From: Verrucomicrobiaceae bacterium
GTDB lineage: Bacteria > Verrucomicrobiota > Verrucomicrobiia > Verrucomicrobiales > Verrucomicrobiaceae
Length of the DNA: 64,000 nt
Direction of reading: 5' to 3'
NCBI GenBank assembly: GCA_947466075.1
Contig: CANIBP010000022.1
Coordinates: 20,013 to 84,012, forward strand
Shown here in pieces: positions 2,499 to 8,133 of this stretch. A program made the position numbers and the translations under genes. Position 1 is the first letter of the stretch, and each line of letters starts with the position of its first letter. The notes under the pieces are model-generated. The model saw nothing but the letters and a program-made list of their open reading frames with translations. It made no database searches and was not told where the DNA came from.

Positions 2499-3952
2499 TT
2501 CATCAAAAGCTTCAACGCGGCGCGTGCCTGCTCGCTCGCCACATCAATTAACACCACGCCGGCATCATCGCGATTGCGCAGCAGGCTCACGAAGCGGCCT
2601 TGCGCGGTGAATTCGGCCTCGCCTTTCGTGTCGTAGCGTTGTTTGAGCGAGTTCAGCATCGCCTTGTAAAACGCATCAGCGGACGACTTGTCCATGAACA
2701 GCGTCTGCCATGCCGCGTGATCTCGTTTTGCGCCGCCATCCGCCGCCCAGGCGAGGAAACGATCTGCCACAAGACCGCGCGTGCCTGCACCAGCGGCTTC
2801 ATCTTCGTTGTACATGCGCAGAGCCGTTGCACAGACGAATTTGCCAAGGCGGTCGTCGAGAATCGGCAGCACACCACTGAGCTTCACGTCATCCAGCTTG
2901 ATCTCCACCGGCGCAGGCCGTTCGGGATTGATATACACCTCGGGTTCGATCACTTCCGCCGTGCTGATCGGCGGGCGGCTGTAGGCGGCGTTCAACTGCG
3001 CGAAATTTCCCGCGCTGTGCAGCGTCTGCGCGAAATCAAAGCCACGGCTGAACGGGAACAGTGCCATCTCACGCAGAAAAGCCGGCATCGGCACTTGGTT
3101 CAGCGGATGATCCGGGTCTTCGGACGGCAGATCGTCCTTGGGAGCCGATGCTGGATTTTGCAGCGAGTGGAGAAAGCGCGTGAGCCCTGCATCGCCGCAG
3201 ATCAACGACTCGCGTGCCAGGCGCATGTCCGTCGTCAGCGGTCCGTGCTGCGGTTGAAACAACGTGCTGCCGTACTCGCGCAGCAACTGGCCGAAGGCGA
3301 TGCCCATCGGCTCGTTCGAGGTCACCGACGGACCGGAGGCTGTCGAAGGATCAACCGTGAGCATCGTTTCCGACTCCGCGTCATACCAGCCGCCGAGCTG
3401 GCGTGCCAGCAGCGCCGCGCGCAGCGGCAGCGGATCAATTGCTTCGGGAATCCAGCCGAGTGCCGCCAGACCGCGCGTGAGCTTCTTCGCCTCATCATTC
3501 GGCTGCTGCTGTTTCAACCACGCGAGGATCGCCTTTTCGACCTCTTCCTGGCTCACCGTCGTCGTCACCATCGGCAGCGCATGCAGCTTGCGCATCTTCA
3601 TCATCTCCAGGCCCATGCCGACAAAATCCGGGGCCACGCCATCGTCCTTCATGTCGATCTTCGGCACGTTTTTCATGCCCAGCGTGCCGAGCTTTTGCAG
3701 CAATTGCGCATTCTCATCCTTCAGCACGTCGTTCTGACCTTGCAGGTACTCGATCTGCCCTTGCAGCAGCACGATCTGCTTCTGCAAATCTTCCGCGCTG
3801 CCGTTGGTCACGTTGATGACATTGATCGGCGTCGCTTCCGGCTTGGCTGCCACCACCACCGGCTTTTCCGGCTTCACACCCGCCAGAAAAAACGCCACAC
3901 CTCCTCCCAGGGCCAGGAGAATGACCAGCAATGCGGCGGGGTTGAGCTTCAT
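2495..3952 (-). CDS. Membrane-anchored coiled-coil protein with a degenerate metalloprotease-like domain
   Basis: A 485-residue protein. Residues 5-25 form one hydrophobic helix (ALLVILLALGGGVAFFLAG), followed by a short linker and a coiled coil (about 52-92, LQKQIVLLQGQIEYLQ). The rest resembles bacterial zinc-peptidase-like proteins that carry HExxH, then an EGDA motif, then an 'AGG...N..Y..PP.ST..I.HPE.Y' block. The last block is recognisable (GNFAQLNAAYSRPPISTAEV and EPEVY), but HExxH is replaced by IAFGQLLREYG (about 218-228) and EGDA by CGDA (252-255). All expected metal ligands are therefore missing. I infer a non-catalytic periplasmic scaffold. It is the first gene of the acyP-ABC operon. 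Confidence 0.7.
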   Translation of the reverse strand: MKLNPAALLVILLALGGGVAFFLAGVKPEKPVVVAAKPEATPINVINVTNGSAEDLQKQIVLLQGQIEYLQGQNDVLKDENAQLLQKLGTLGMKNVPKIDMKDDGVAPDFVGMGLEMMKMRKLHALPMVTTTVSQEEVEKAILAWLKQQQPNDEAKKLTRGLAALGWIPEAIDPLPLRAALLARQLGGWYDAESETMLTVDPSTASGPSVTSNEPMGIAFGQLLREYGSTLFQPQHGPLTTDMRLARESLICGDAGLTRFLHSLQNPASAPKDDLPSEDPDHPLNQVPMPAFLREMALFPFSRGFDFAQTLHSAGNFAQLNAAYSRPPISTAEVIEPEVYINPERPAPVEIKLDDVKLSGVLPILDDRLGKFVCATALRMYNEDEAAGAGTRGLVADRFLAWAADGGAKRDHAAWQTLFMDKSSADAFYKAMLNSLKQRYDTKGEAEFTAQGRFVSLLRNRDDAGVVLIDVASEQARAALKLLMK

Positions 3953-4029
3953 GTGTCATTCATAGAACAGCCCGCCGATCATCTCCAGTTTTCTCGTTGG
4001 ACGCGGTCAATTTCGCGCCACCATGCCGC

Positions 4030-4872
4030 ATGCAGCACTGGCGCTTTGGTTCCCACGACCTCGATCTCACCGATCGCGGCCTCATCATGGGCATCGTCAA
4101 TGTCACGCCCGACAGTTTTTCCGATGGCGGCCGCTATCTCGACACCGGCCGCGCCGTCGAGCATGCGCTCGCCTTGATCGCCGAAGGAGCCGACATCCTC
4201 GACATCGGCGGTGAATCCACCCGCCCCGGCGCTGAACCCGTCGAGGAAGCCGAGGAACTGCGCCGCGTGCTGCCCGTCATTCGTGCCGTGCGTTCACAAA
4301 CACAGACGCTCATCTCCATCGACACCATGAAGGCCGCCGTCGCTCGTGCCGCGCTCGATGCCGGGGCCGACATCATCAACGACGTCACCGGCCTGCGTGG
4401 CGATGCCGCCATGCTGCGTGTCGCCGCCGCATCCAGCGCCGGCATCGTCGTCATGCACATGACCGGCACGCCGCAGACCATGCAGGCGAATCCGCATTAC
4501 GACGACGTTGTCACCGAAGTGCGTTCATGGTTTGAAAACCGCCTGCAACTGCTCGAAAAAGAAGGTGTCGCCCCCGAACGCGTTGTGCTCGACCCCGGCT
4601 TCGGCTTCGGCAAGACCCTGGAACACAACCTCACCCTCATGCGCGAGTTGCCGCAGATCTCCGTGTCAGACCGGCCGCTCCTCGTCGGCGTCTCCCGCAA
4701 ATCCATGATCGCCAAAGTGCTTCATTCCGATGCCATGGAAGACCGCTTCTGGCCCACCATCGCCCTCAGCGCCTACGCCTGCGAACACGGTGCCCGCATC
4801 GTGCGTGTGCATGACGTGAAGCCGAACCGCGAAGCGCTGCGGATGATGGAGGCGATTTTAGCCGGCGCGTGA
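4030..4872 (+). CDS. folP: Dihydropteroate synthase
   Basis: Condenses 6-hydroxymethyl-7,8-dihydropterin pyrophosphate with p-aminobenzoate in folate synthesis; a cytosolic TIM barrel. The diagnostic motifs are present: IMGIVNVTPDSFSDGG (pyrophosphate loop), DIGGESTRPGA, DIINDVTG, HMTGTP, LDPGFGFGKT and GVSRKS. From the ATG at 4030 the protein is 280 residues, the usual size; a TTG at 3997 in the ORF track would add 11 residues with no family support. The gene is divergent from the coiled-coil operon. Its last 92 nt are repeated in degenerate form at 6143-6234. Confidence 0.95.
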   Translation: MQHWRFGSHDLDLTDRGLIMGIVNVTPDSFSDGGRYLDTGRAVEHALALIAEGADILDIGGESTRPGAEPVEEAEELRRVLPVIRAVRSQTQTLISIDTMKAAVARAALDAGADIINDVTGLRGDAAMLRVAAASSAGIVVMHMTGTPQTMQANPHYDDVVTEVRSWFENRLQLLEKEGVAPERVVLDPGFGFGKTLEHNLTLMRELPQISVSDRPLLVGVSRKSMIAKVLHSDAMEDRFWPTIALSAYACEHGARIVRVHDVKPNREALRMMEAILAGA

Positions 4873-4892
4873 AACAGGCTGCTAGCCTGTTC
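4872..4892. terminator. Hairpin after folP
   Basis: An 8-bp stem (AACAGGCT / AGCCTGTT) with a 3-nt loop sits directly behind the folP stop codon and in front of the convergent gene's stop. It has no strong T-run, so it may be a weak bidirectional terminator. A similar hairpin lies behind the duplicated folP tail at 6231-6257. Confidence 0.4.
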
Positions 4893-4928
4893 AGAATACC
4901 GAACCACAGCCTAGCAGCAGGAGAAGAC

Positions 4929-5993
4929 TCATGGAACAATAGCCTTGGTCAGCGTAATTTTATGCTGTTTGCCCTCTGCATCGAGAAACAAAAAGGTGTT
5001 TGCCCCCTTTAGCCCGGCCAGCAGGGCGCAAAGCTTTGGGTAACCCAGCACGATCACGTTCGAGGCGTTGATCTCCAAAAGCTTCCAAGACTTCCGGACG
5101 GCTTTCAAAGGCGCGTCTGAGTTAATGACTATTTTATCGACTACGATGTCCTGGTTGACCTCTTGTAGAGAAAATCCAAACATTTCTCGATTCGTTTTGA
5201 ACTCCACCATTTCAGCAGCCTTCCAAGCTTCGCGGATTCGTTCTTTGTCCGCAGCGGCCAGTTCTTGCTTCAGCGTCTCTTCATCAGGCATTGTGAAACC
5301 TTCAGTTTGAAGTACATAAAGATAGGTCAGTCCGCCTTCATCGTATTGTTTGATGCCGTTTATTATAGAATCATCATCCCACGAGATAAGCACAGTGGAC
5401 TTTGGGTCTTTTTCGACAAATGGATAGAGTGTATATCCAGAGATCTCCAATTGTGTCGGCTGTCTTTTCAAGACCTGAGAAAACTCGGCATCAGCACTGG
5501 CAGCTTCTGCGAGTTTTCCATTTTTCAAATAGTTCTCCACCTGCGCAGTGTACCTCCCATTCAGTCTGTCCAGAGGTTCAAAACGGGCCAATGTCGTAAC
5601 CACTCTGTGCAGCAGCCTGTCATGGGTGACTCCTGATGTTGGGTGCCAGCCATCACTCCTTAATAGAAGCACCGGCTTGCCAGCCAATGCCCGCATATAG
5701 GAGATGAGCTTGGCCCCTTGGCTTCGAAGGTCGTTGATGTTTTTACCCGGCAGGTGAGCATAACCATCTCCATTCAGGCGGTGCCTCAGGATCGTTATCT
5801 CCTCCGATTGATTGTCGAAGATTGTGTTATCCACAAAAACACGTCCTTGGGAAATTTCATACCGCACTGAGCACATCTTTGTGGTGGCACCCCGGGCCAA
5901 AGCCTGCGCAAAGCACACGAAGACAACTGCAAACCAAAGAGGTGGGAAGAAGAATTTAATCACGCAGAACTTAACGGGCTGTGCTGACCCCAC
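4929..5993 (-). CDS. Hypothetical secreted protein, low GC
   Basis: A 354-residue protein (GTG start; an alternative GTG at 5963 would start right at the signal peptide). The N-terminus FFFPPLWFAVVFVCFAQALARGA is a convincing signal sequence, so export is likely. The rest is soluble, with alternating beta-like and helical stretches; I recognise no domain. RALAGKPVLLLRSDGWHPTS could be an ExbD-like periplasmic segment, but this is weak. Sampled GC is about 42-53 percent, clearly below folP and other neighbours. The gene lies between folP and a degenerate copy of the folP 3' end, suggesting that it arrived by insertion. Confidence 0.65.
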   Translation of the reverse strand: MGSAQPVKFCVIKFFFPPLWFAVVFVCFAQALARGATTKMCSVRYEISQGRVFVDNTIFDNQSEEITILRHRLNGDGYAHLPGKNINDLRSQGAKLISYMRALAGKPVLLLRSDGWHPTSGVTHDRLLHRVVTTLARFEPLDRLNGRYTAQVENYLKNGKLAEAASADAEFSQVLKRQPTQLEISGYTLYPFVEKDPKSTVLISWDDDSIINGIKQYDEGGLTYLYVLQTEGFTMPDEETLKQELAAADKERIREAWKAAEMVEFKTNREMFGFSLQEVNQDIVVDKIVINSDAPLKAVRKSWKLLEINASNVIVLGYPKLCALLAGLKGANTFLFLDAEGKQHKITLTKAIVP

Positions 5994-6142
5994 TTGTCAT
6001 CCAATAAGCGGAGAAAAAGCGATGGGCCGGCAGTTCGCCACATCGTGCCCTAACTCGCGCTGAAAAATGGAATCCCCAGCTTCTTCGCGAGACGCTTCGG
6101 CCTTCTCATCGCTTCTTCCATGCGCTGGGCTTCGTCGGCTTC

Positions 6143-6234
6143 GCGAACACGGTGCCCGCATTGTCCGTGTGCATGATGTGAAGCCGTACCGCGAAGCGCT
6201 GCTGATGAGGGAGGCGATTCTGCAAGCTGCGTAA
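6143..6234 (+). pseudogene. Degenerate duplicate of the folP 3' end
   Basis: These 92 nt align without gaps to the last 92 nt of folP (4781-4872), with 14 mismatches by my count (about 85 percent identity). In the same frame it reads EHGARIVRVHDVKPYREALL and ends in TAA; folP reads EHGARIVRVHDVKPNREALR. Nothing upstream resembles folP, so only the tail was copied. It is in the same orientation as folP and 1.36 kb downstream. Confidence 0.8.
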
Positions 6235-6257
6235 AACAGTCTGCCAGACTGTTTTAC
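6231..6257. repeat. Perfect 13-bp inverted repeat (terminator-like)
   Basis: GTAAAACAGTCTG is followed, after a single central base, by its exact reverse complement. The palindrome overlaps the stop codon of the duplicated folP tail and ends 17 nt before the stop of the convergent cytochrome gene. The T-rich arms on both strands fit a bidirectional terminator, although the near-absent loop makes a cruciform or protein-binding site possible. Confidence 0.6.
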
Positions 6258-6274
6258 GAAGGCATCATCGATGA

Positions 6275-6733
6275 CTATCGAATAATCTCCAGCATCCCTG
6301 ACGCGCCTGAAGGCCATGATGCACCTTCTTTGACCCACTTCGTGAGAATGGCGTACTCGTCCTTGGTCAGCCTCTCGCCCACGGCAGGCATGACGCTGAC
6401 GTTTTGATGGGTGGAAGCCGTATTGGCAACGAGCAGGCTCTTCTCCGGGTGCCCCGGCACAATGTAAGCACCCAAGGCTCCCGAACGCATCGCCTGCGTG
6501 CGGTTTTCGAGGCTCATGTGGCCTTTGAGTGCCTTGCGGTTGTGGCACATGACGCACTTTGCTTCCAACACCGGCTTTACATGCACCACGAAATCCACTG
6601 GGCCTGTCTTGGCCGCATGGATCGCTTCCTTGCTCAGCACGTTTTCGCCCAGCGGTTTTGTCTCGGGATCAGGCGGTGTAGCGCATGCGGCTATGAATAG
6701 GATGCAGAGTAGGTATAAAAAAACTGATTTCAT
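6275..6733 (-). CDS. Mono-heme c-type cytochrome domain lipoprotein
   Basis: I start at the ATG at 6733 because it opens directly into a lipoprotein signal, MKSVFLYLLCILFIAACATP, with a lipobox before Cys17. The mature part carries one heme-binding CVMCH motif in VKPVLEAKCVMCHNR and a likely axial methionine in SVMPAVGERLT. The layout matches the 'planctomycete cytochrome C' module, here stand-alone (about 152 residues) rather than fused to DUF1549/DUF1553. It probably sits on a membrane facing the periplasm and carries electrons. It has no obvious operon partner and is divergent from the next gene. Confidence 0.8.
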   Translation of the reverse strand: MKSVFLYLLCILFIAACATPPDPETKPLGENVLSKEAIHAAKTGPVDFVVHVKPVLEAKCVMCHNRKALKGHMSLENRTQAMRSGALGAYIVPGHPEKSLLVANTASTHQNVSVMPAVGERLTKDEYAILTKWVKEGASWPSGASGMLEIIR

Positions 6734-6879
6734 GGCGCGACAGAACAACAAATGATCGGGCATGCAATGTGTCTGTTTGTGCATTTTTTAAGTCATCGCA
6801 TTCCCAGCTGGAAATTAGTGTCCAATATCGGCGATCTAGAAGCTTGTGCTTGGGCTCCAACCTATCCTAGAATTCATCA

Positions 6880-8133
6880 ATGAACCGCCGCCACTTTATC
6901 CACTCCGCTGCCGCATTGCCATTCATCTCCGCCATTGCTGCGGAAAAACCAAAGCGGCTCATCCTACGATCTTCCTGGCAGACGGTGAATATTGGTGACA
7001 TCGCGCACACACCGGGAGTGCTGGCCTTATTGGAGAAACATCTGCCAGACGTCGAAGTGCGACTCTGGCCGAGCAAGGTGGACAATGGCGTGGAAGAAAT
7101 GCTCCGCGCACGCTTTCCAAAGGTGAAGATCATCCAGGGCGAGGAAGTAAAAACTGCTTTCGATGAGTGTGACTTCCTGCTGCATGGCTCCGGGCCATCG
7201 CTGGTAGCTGAAAAGGATGTGATCAAATGGAGCAAGGCCACTGGCAAGCCTTACGGCGTGTATGGCATCACGTTCTCGTCGCAGGGTTCTACGGCGACAA
7301 AGCCGTCGTCGGACAAATTCATCTTATCGACGATCGACGTGTTCAATGGCGCGAAGTTTGTTTATTTCCGCGATTCAGTGTCGCTGGAACTGGCGAAGAA
7401 AAAGGGCTGCACCTGTCCGCTGATGGAGTTCGGACCGGATGGCGCTTTTGCCGTCGATTTGAAGAACGATGCGAAGGCTGATGCCTTCCTGAAGGCCAAC
7501 AACCTCCATGATGGCAAGTTTCTGTGTTGCATCCCCCGCTTGCGATTCACGCCTTATTGGTCAATCCCCGAAAAAAAGGCGGAGAAAGACGAGGTGAAGC
7601 ACGCCCGCAACGAAGCGATGAAGGAGCACGATTGCAAACCGCTACGTGATGCGATTGTGAGCGTTATTCAAAACACGGACATGAAAATCCTGCTCTGCCC
7701 CGAAGATAAAACGCAGATGGCCGTGAACAAAGAGATGCTCTACGACAAGCTACCCGAAAACGTGAAGGCAAAGGTCGTCTGGCGCGAGACTTACTGGCTC
7801 TCGGATGAGGCTCTCAGCACTTACCGCCGCAGCGCGGGTCTCTTTGGCCACGAAATGCACAGCCCGATCATGTGCATCGGCAACGGTATCCCCGCCATCG
7901 TCTGTCGCTGGGCCGAACAAACGAGCAAGGGCTACATGTGGCGCGACATCGGCCTGAACGAGTGGCTGTTCGACCTCGACAAGGAGGACGAACTCGCCCG
8001 CGTTGCCGAAACAGTGCTGGCGATGGCGAAAGATCCTGTCGGATCGAAAGCGAAGGCTGCGAAGGCCCGTAACTTCGTGATGAACAGGTTCGCAGCGAGC
8101 ATGGGCCTGGTGAAAAACCATCTTTCCAAGTGA
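6880..8133 (+). CDS. Polysaccharide pyruvyl transferase family protein
   Basis: A 417-residue protein. The N-terminus [20 protein letters not shown] is a Tat-like signal peptide (NRRHF). The body has the NIGD segment ([20 protein letters not shown]), a glycine-rich [12 protein letters not shown] and, near the C-terminus, [20 protein letters not shown], which match the polysaccharide pyruvyl transferase superfamily fold. Family members transfer pyruvate ketals to sugars, but an exported version in Verrucomicrobiota is of unknown function. It is monocistronic. Its stop codon TGA is followed by another 68 open codons in the same frame. Confidence 0.8.

Follow-up and report, generated by a model that had tools for sequence, protein, structure and literature searches.

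Does a gene tail repeated on both sides of a foreign-looking gene mark an old integrase-borne island, or can it arise in another way? This question is raised by a locus in the 64,000-nt stretch of Verrucomicrobiaceae DNA analysed here (the window), where the 3' end of folP occurs a second time downstream and a single gene stands between the two copies (Table 1). A sequence-only reading of the locus had offered two explanations, an old, decayed integrase island at folP or a duplication of the folP tail that trapped a foreign gene. The window genome (G000, 120 contigs) and its sister (G017) are apparently draft metagenome assemblies.

Table 1. Features of the two-tail locus in the window and content of the folP-X slot in relatives
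Feature	Position	Strand	Basis or content
folP (dihydropteroate synthase), intact	4024-4872	+	Pfam Pterin_bind, 1.7e-93
Tail 1, functional folP 3' end with hairpin 1	4781-4891	+	Direct repeat with 6143-6253
Hairpin 1, 3' of folP, ACAGGCTGCTAGCCTGT	4868-4900	+	Fold -11.2 kcal/mol, z -2.7
Orphan cargo ORF, 354 aa	4929-5993	-	Low GC, probable signal peptide, no family match
X 3'-end remnant	6056-6145	-	92-96% DNA identity to X of G008 and G067
Junction X / folP tail, putative illegitimate join	6139-6149		Short shared sequence
Tail 2, probable displaced original folP 3' end, decaying	6143-6234	+	Alignment, site patterns
Hairpin 2	6227-6261	+	Inverted repeat, 17-nt arms; 6228-6262 folds at -17.1 kcal/mol, z -6.3
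cytC (PSCyt1-type cytochrome c), right flank, conserved neighbour	6275-6784	-	Pfam PSCyt1, 2e-9
Slot of G004			Empty; X ends 25 nt after folP
Slot of G008 and G067			FHA protein
Slot of G028			Beta-helix protein
Slot of G013	L072 2253-4129		Type II restriction-modification pair
Slot of G015	L171 1155-3025		HEC-01 genes; HEC-01A and HEC-01B models both matched
Slot of G011	L074 5565-6689		ATPase of HEC-01 kind
Slot of G031	L079 554-1411		DUF2971/PDC-S31 protein
Slot of G001, G002 and G030			Small protein, 125-127 aa

The repeated folP tail and its hairpins

Alignment of the two copies (tail 1 and tail 2) gave exactly the repeat that had been described from the sequence: 4781-4872 and 6143-6234 lie on the same strand and align without gaps, with 78 of the 92 positions identical and 14 mismatched. 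The similarity reaches 111 nt, into the hairpin (85-87% identity), and its E value of 4.9e-30 rules out a chance resemblance. A search of the whole genome with the second copy revealed no third one. Tail 2 carries the replacements N>Y, R>L and M>R at residues kept in nearly all relatives, as expected for a non-functional remnant, in line with its earlier description as degenerate.

The hairpin that had been noted after each tail was recovered in both places by folding. The motif of hairpin 1 is rare, being found at 3 places in the 6.37 Mb genome (with at most one mismatch); this rules out a common genomic repeat and indicates that the hairpins belong to the duplicated folP end. A sequence similar to hairpin 1 is also present 3' of folP in G011, and hairpin 2 has its collinear counterpart in the folP-cytC spacer of the sister.

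The folP genes of the window and of the sister share 93% DNA identity, which falls to 78% across the last ~50 nt, and the last ~15 nt of the window gene, together with the hairpin 3' of it, are unlike the sister lineage. The FolP C-terminus is highly variable in the genus, in the last 2-10 residues that follow MMEAIL. Species with the same cargo can share a FolP ending (AAES in G001, G002 and G030, all with the 125-127 aa protein); the endings of G011 and G015, both with HEC-01, are not shared.

The folP-X-cytC slot and its cargo

A FolP-type match at E 1e-40 or better was obtained in 47 of the 48 genomes of the genus searched. In the nearest clade, folP is followed by variable cargo and then by gene X and cytC, both in the opposite orientation. 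Gene X, conserved and about 378 aa long, stands beside cytC in the relatives and has no match in Pfam or NCBIfam; the cytC protein is 89% identical (aa) in G017. The distance between folP and cytC ranges from 47 nt (G017) to 6.2 kb across the loci, and the folP-X slot itself from 0 to about 2.2 kb. The locus thus combines conserved flanks with cargo that differs between genomes, as hotspots do, and remoter members of the genus carry other genes 3' of folP. Recognised defence genes occupy the slot in four genomes (G015, G011, G013 and G031); the window cargo is not among them. The FolP of record CAMCWM010000236.1 (L086, titled Akkermansia muciniphila), probably a misnamed MAG, is 88% identical to that of the window.

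In the sister G017, whose FolP is 97% identical, a single tail is present at this place and both X and cargo are missing, which makes it a relative with one tail and without the gene, of the kind that the sequence-only reading had proposed to look for. From tail 2 through hairpin 2 to the spacer before cytC, the window sequence runs parallel to the folP end, the hairpin and the spacer of this genome. The other kinds of relative envisaged there, with larger islands or an integrase between two tails, were not seen: none of the 37 other folP loci of the genus has a second folP tail within the stretch compared.

The ORF between the tails has a GC content of 0.487 and a GC3 of 0.54, the lowest of the eleven genes compared, against 0.54-0.64 and 0.62-0.79 in the ten neighbouring genes, which alone served as the reference for base composition; the claim of one gene of clearly lower GC between the tails is thereby borne out. 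The interval 4873-6060 does not match the folP loci of the relatives. No family match of the orphan protein was found in Pfam, PADLOC (which includes known defence families), NCBIfam or PHROGs, and no relatives of it in overlapping samples of 55 other genomes from the genus, 383 from the class and 387 from the phylum, or among genome contigs, viral contigs, plasmids and phages. Two matches at E 0.003-0.006 were judged to be due to chance, and a fold search was disregarded, the quality of the protein model being too poor (pLDDT 38). Export, which had been stated as a property of the gene, is backed as far as a plausible signal peptide goes, recognised by eye as a hydrophobic stretch ending in AQALA; that the product is an exported accessory protein is our guess. 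The gene appears to be carried cargo, with at most a putative link to the recombination event, and a role in defence or competition is possible, given that the folP-X slot holds defence genes in four relatives.

A feature missed by the sequence-only reading adjoins tail 2 on the left. This segment is the 3' end of gene X (matching residues 337-377 of the X copy found elsewhere in the same genome), and it retains the ancestral orientation and order between folP and cytC. Its closeness to X of G008 and G067 as donors was not significant (p 0.09), and a donor identification from the remnant was dropped. At the right join, comparison of the X alleles of G008 and G004 with folP of G017 revealed a match of 4-7 nt, namely CGCG with X of G008 and CGCGAAC shared by X of G004 and folP; if the donor X was like that of G004, the microhomology would be CGCGAAC. 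A divergent X (73% identity) is located elsewhere in the window genome and the sister (G000:C2:160374-161486 and G017:C48:3219-4331) and, of the four genomes checked, only in these two, G008 and G067 being without it. This distribution suggests that X was lost at the folP locus in both genomes, where the divergent copy may serve. It is as though a distant version had taken the place of X.

Origin of the two-tail locus

A mirror case bears on whether folP acted as an attachment site. In G021 (L076) it is the 3' end of cytC that is duplicated (75% identity over 110 nt), and the two cytC tails, at 3398-3504 and 7497-7606 in folP orientation, bracket three inserted genes, one with a NUDIX domain and two without family match. 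The copy beside X aligns with the relatives through the stop codon into the X spacer, and the intact cytC, which borders the three inserted genes, has different last codons; a comparable duplication therefore arose independently at the opposite flank. That it hit cytC instead argues against a single att site.

An integrase island at folP would have required an element that used the folP 3' end as att site, supplied a tail itself and lost the integrase afterwards. The geometry, an intact gene with replaced last codons and a displaced original tail, does fit a gene-end att site, and the cargo is low in GC and foreign; a gene-end repeat flanking an insert and an empty site in a relative agree as well, although other recombination routes also give both. 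However, no integrase is present, the only long ORF in 4873-6142 being the orphan, which has no integrase match, and none was found among the cargo genes of the relatives scanned. The single tails at the 37 other loci speak against recurrent att use, and on the right the insert is bounded by the 3' end of the chromosomal neighbour X, whose position and orientation are the ancestral ones, and not by the terminus of a mobile element. With no integrase, no repeated att use and an X remnant inside, the decayed island was given up as first choice and is regarded as very unlikely. The alternative named in the sequence-only reading, a duplication of the folP tail that trapped a foreign gene, fares well, as the sister site is empty with one tail and the gene is absent from relatives; such a duplication is real, and its mechanism can be proposed.

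We consider it probable that the two-tail locus is a recombination scar at a gene-turnover slot that works without an integrase. Judged from the X remnant and the collinear empty site of the sister, the insert resembles part of the folP-cargo-X interval of a relative. In the ancestor of both genomes, X and cargo would have been lost here, leaving the folP-hairpin-cytC form in which the sister still stands. DNA of a relative, with a folP end, hairpin 1, the orphan gene and X, would then have entered. On the left, homologous exchange within the conserved 3' end of folP, some 15-18 nt short of the stop codon, would have given folP the last codons and the hairpin of the donor; on the right, the donor X would have been joined illegitimately to the resident folP tail at the 4-7 nt match. 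The resident tail, displaced in this way, would have remained on the right with hairpin 2 and cytC, where it is decaying. The direction of the event would be as given here, and the event presumably depended on RecA. Its form may have been linear homology-facilitated illegitimate recombination (HFIR), a single crossover with a fragment that had become circular, or template switching, each of which fits the sequence. No donor carrying the orphan gene was found in the collections searched, for which reason the import from a relative is only inferred.

Tail 1 itself is a mosaic, with a switch ~15-18 nt before the folP stop within the 92 nt, consistent with homologous exchange at one end. In nt 1-77, the window tails agree with each other against G017 at 7 informative sites, tail 2 agrees with G017 at 2 and tail 1 with G017 at 4, and in nt 78-92 the respective numbers are 0, 7 and 1 (Fisher p 0.003, for a small sample of 92 nt and a breakpoint picked post hoc, after inspection). 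According to these counts, tail 1 follows the window lineage as far as about nt 75 and continues from there as another folP end with its own hairpin, while tail 2 keeps the original folP end of the lineage. Later gene conversion between the tails could mimic such a mosaic.

The same sites bear on the main rival, in which the two-tail form would be ancestral to both genomes, having arisen by a rearrangement within the lineage in which most of X disappeared and a copy of the folP tail was placed next to cytC; recombination between the tails would later have removed the interval from the sister. Recombination is possible between direct repeats as long as these, and the sister tail indeed has the end of tail 2 and the same cytC spacer. 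In nt 1-77, however, 7 states are common to the window tails and differ from the sister, against only 2 that tail 2 has in common with the sister, so that the tails look younger than the split, unless they were converted later; a separate origin would moreover be needed for hairpin 1 and for the final codons of tail 1. The site pattern thus mildly disfavours a deletion in the sister, which we hold to be unlikely.

Tail 2, pseudogene-like and in the same orientation as folP, could also suggest that folP was duplicated in tandem, that everything but the tail of one copy was lost and that an unrelated gene was captured. Its collinearity with the sister's folP end, together with hairpin 2 and cytC, identifies tail 2 rather as the original folP end, and a duplication of folP was rejected on this ground; only the tail is present, moreover, with no upstream folP sequence, and X sequence is joined straight to it, so that this course is highly improbable. 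Finally, in a 120-contig draft, strains of the long and the short form may co-occur and give rise to a chimeric assembly. The tails, however, share short identical runs only, and the right join rests on 4-7 nt, lengths that are probably below assembler word sizes, and the changes in tail 2 are unlike those of a functional allele, so a chimera is barely credible.

Returning to the recombination scar, the locus would be a readable footprint of gene uptake by an integrase-free hotspot, in which both joins, the displaced tail, the remnant of the neighbour gene and the empty sister site are preserved together. It also makes folP-X-cytC a place in which to seek accessory and defence genes that are not yet described, in a genus that has received little study. 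In a bolder, quite doubtful extension, the 3' ends of folP and cytC would be recurrent entry points of a genus-wide exchange slot, where incoming cargo takes the place of the flanking gene's last codons and the old tail stays behind, and the slot orphans, the gene of the exported 354-aa protein among them, would in that case serve defence or competition without having been recognised as such.

Comparison with known systems

Where an integrase island sits at a gene end, the far end of the insert carries a repeat of part of that gene; the present locus illustrates that a repeated gene tail alone is no proof of such an island. Islands at dusA enter a defined place in a conserved gene (PMC4482086), and the window insert likewise lies at a defined spot in a conserved gene; unlike these islands, it has no integrase, its site is not used as att by other species and it contains sequence of a chromosomal neighbour. 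A limited literature search gave nothing relevant on folP as an integration site. Core defence hotspots of Pseudomonas aeruginosa are chromosomal sites at which defence systems are exchanged (PMC10250203); the folP slot differs in that it holds defence genes in four genomes only and none in the window.

HFIR and single crossover of fragments are known from S. pneumoniae, Acinetobacter, P. stutzeri and E. coli, with joins at 3-10 bp of microhomology, and single crossovers of circular molecules produce duplications of 109-950 bp of the homologous stretch (PMC3240628). The window insert is similarly joined by homology at one end and by a 4-7 nt match at the other. In contrast to those experiments, it is one natural scar read from sequence, with a duplication of about 92-111 nt, and classical HFIR usually deletes recipient DNA (PMC3240628), whereas the window shows a duplication, which counts against the recombination scar.

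The locus also resembles integrase-free hotspots, whose turnover is linked to recombination in the flanking core genes (Oliveira et al. 2017, PMC5635113). Conserved flanks, fast-varying cargo and the lack of a recognisable integrase are common to both. Signs of recombination in the flanking core genes are seen here in one folP tail and one cytC tail; the folP slot differs in being small and in extending across the species of a genus rather than within one species. The two-tail locus is explained here as a probable recombination scar at a small integrase-free hotspot.
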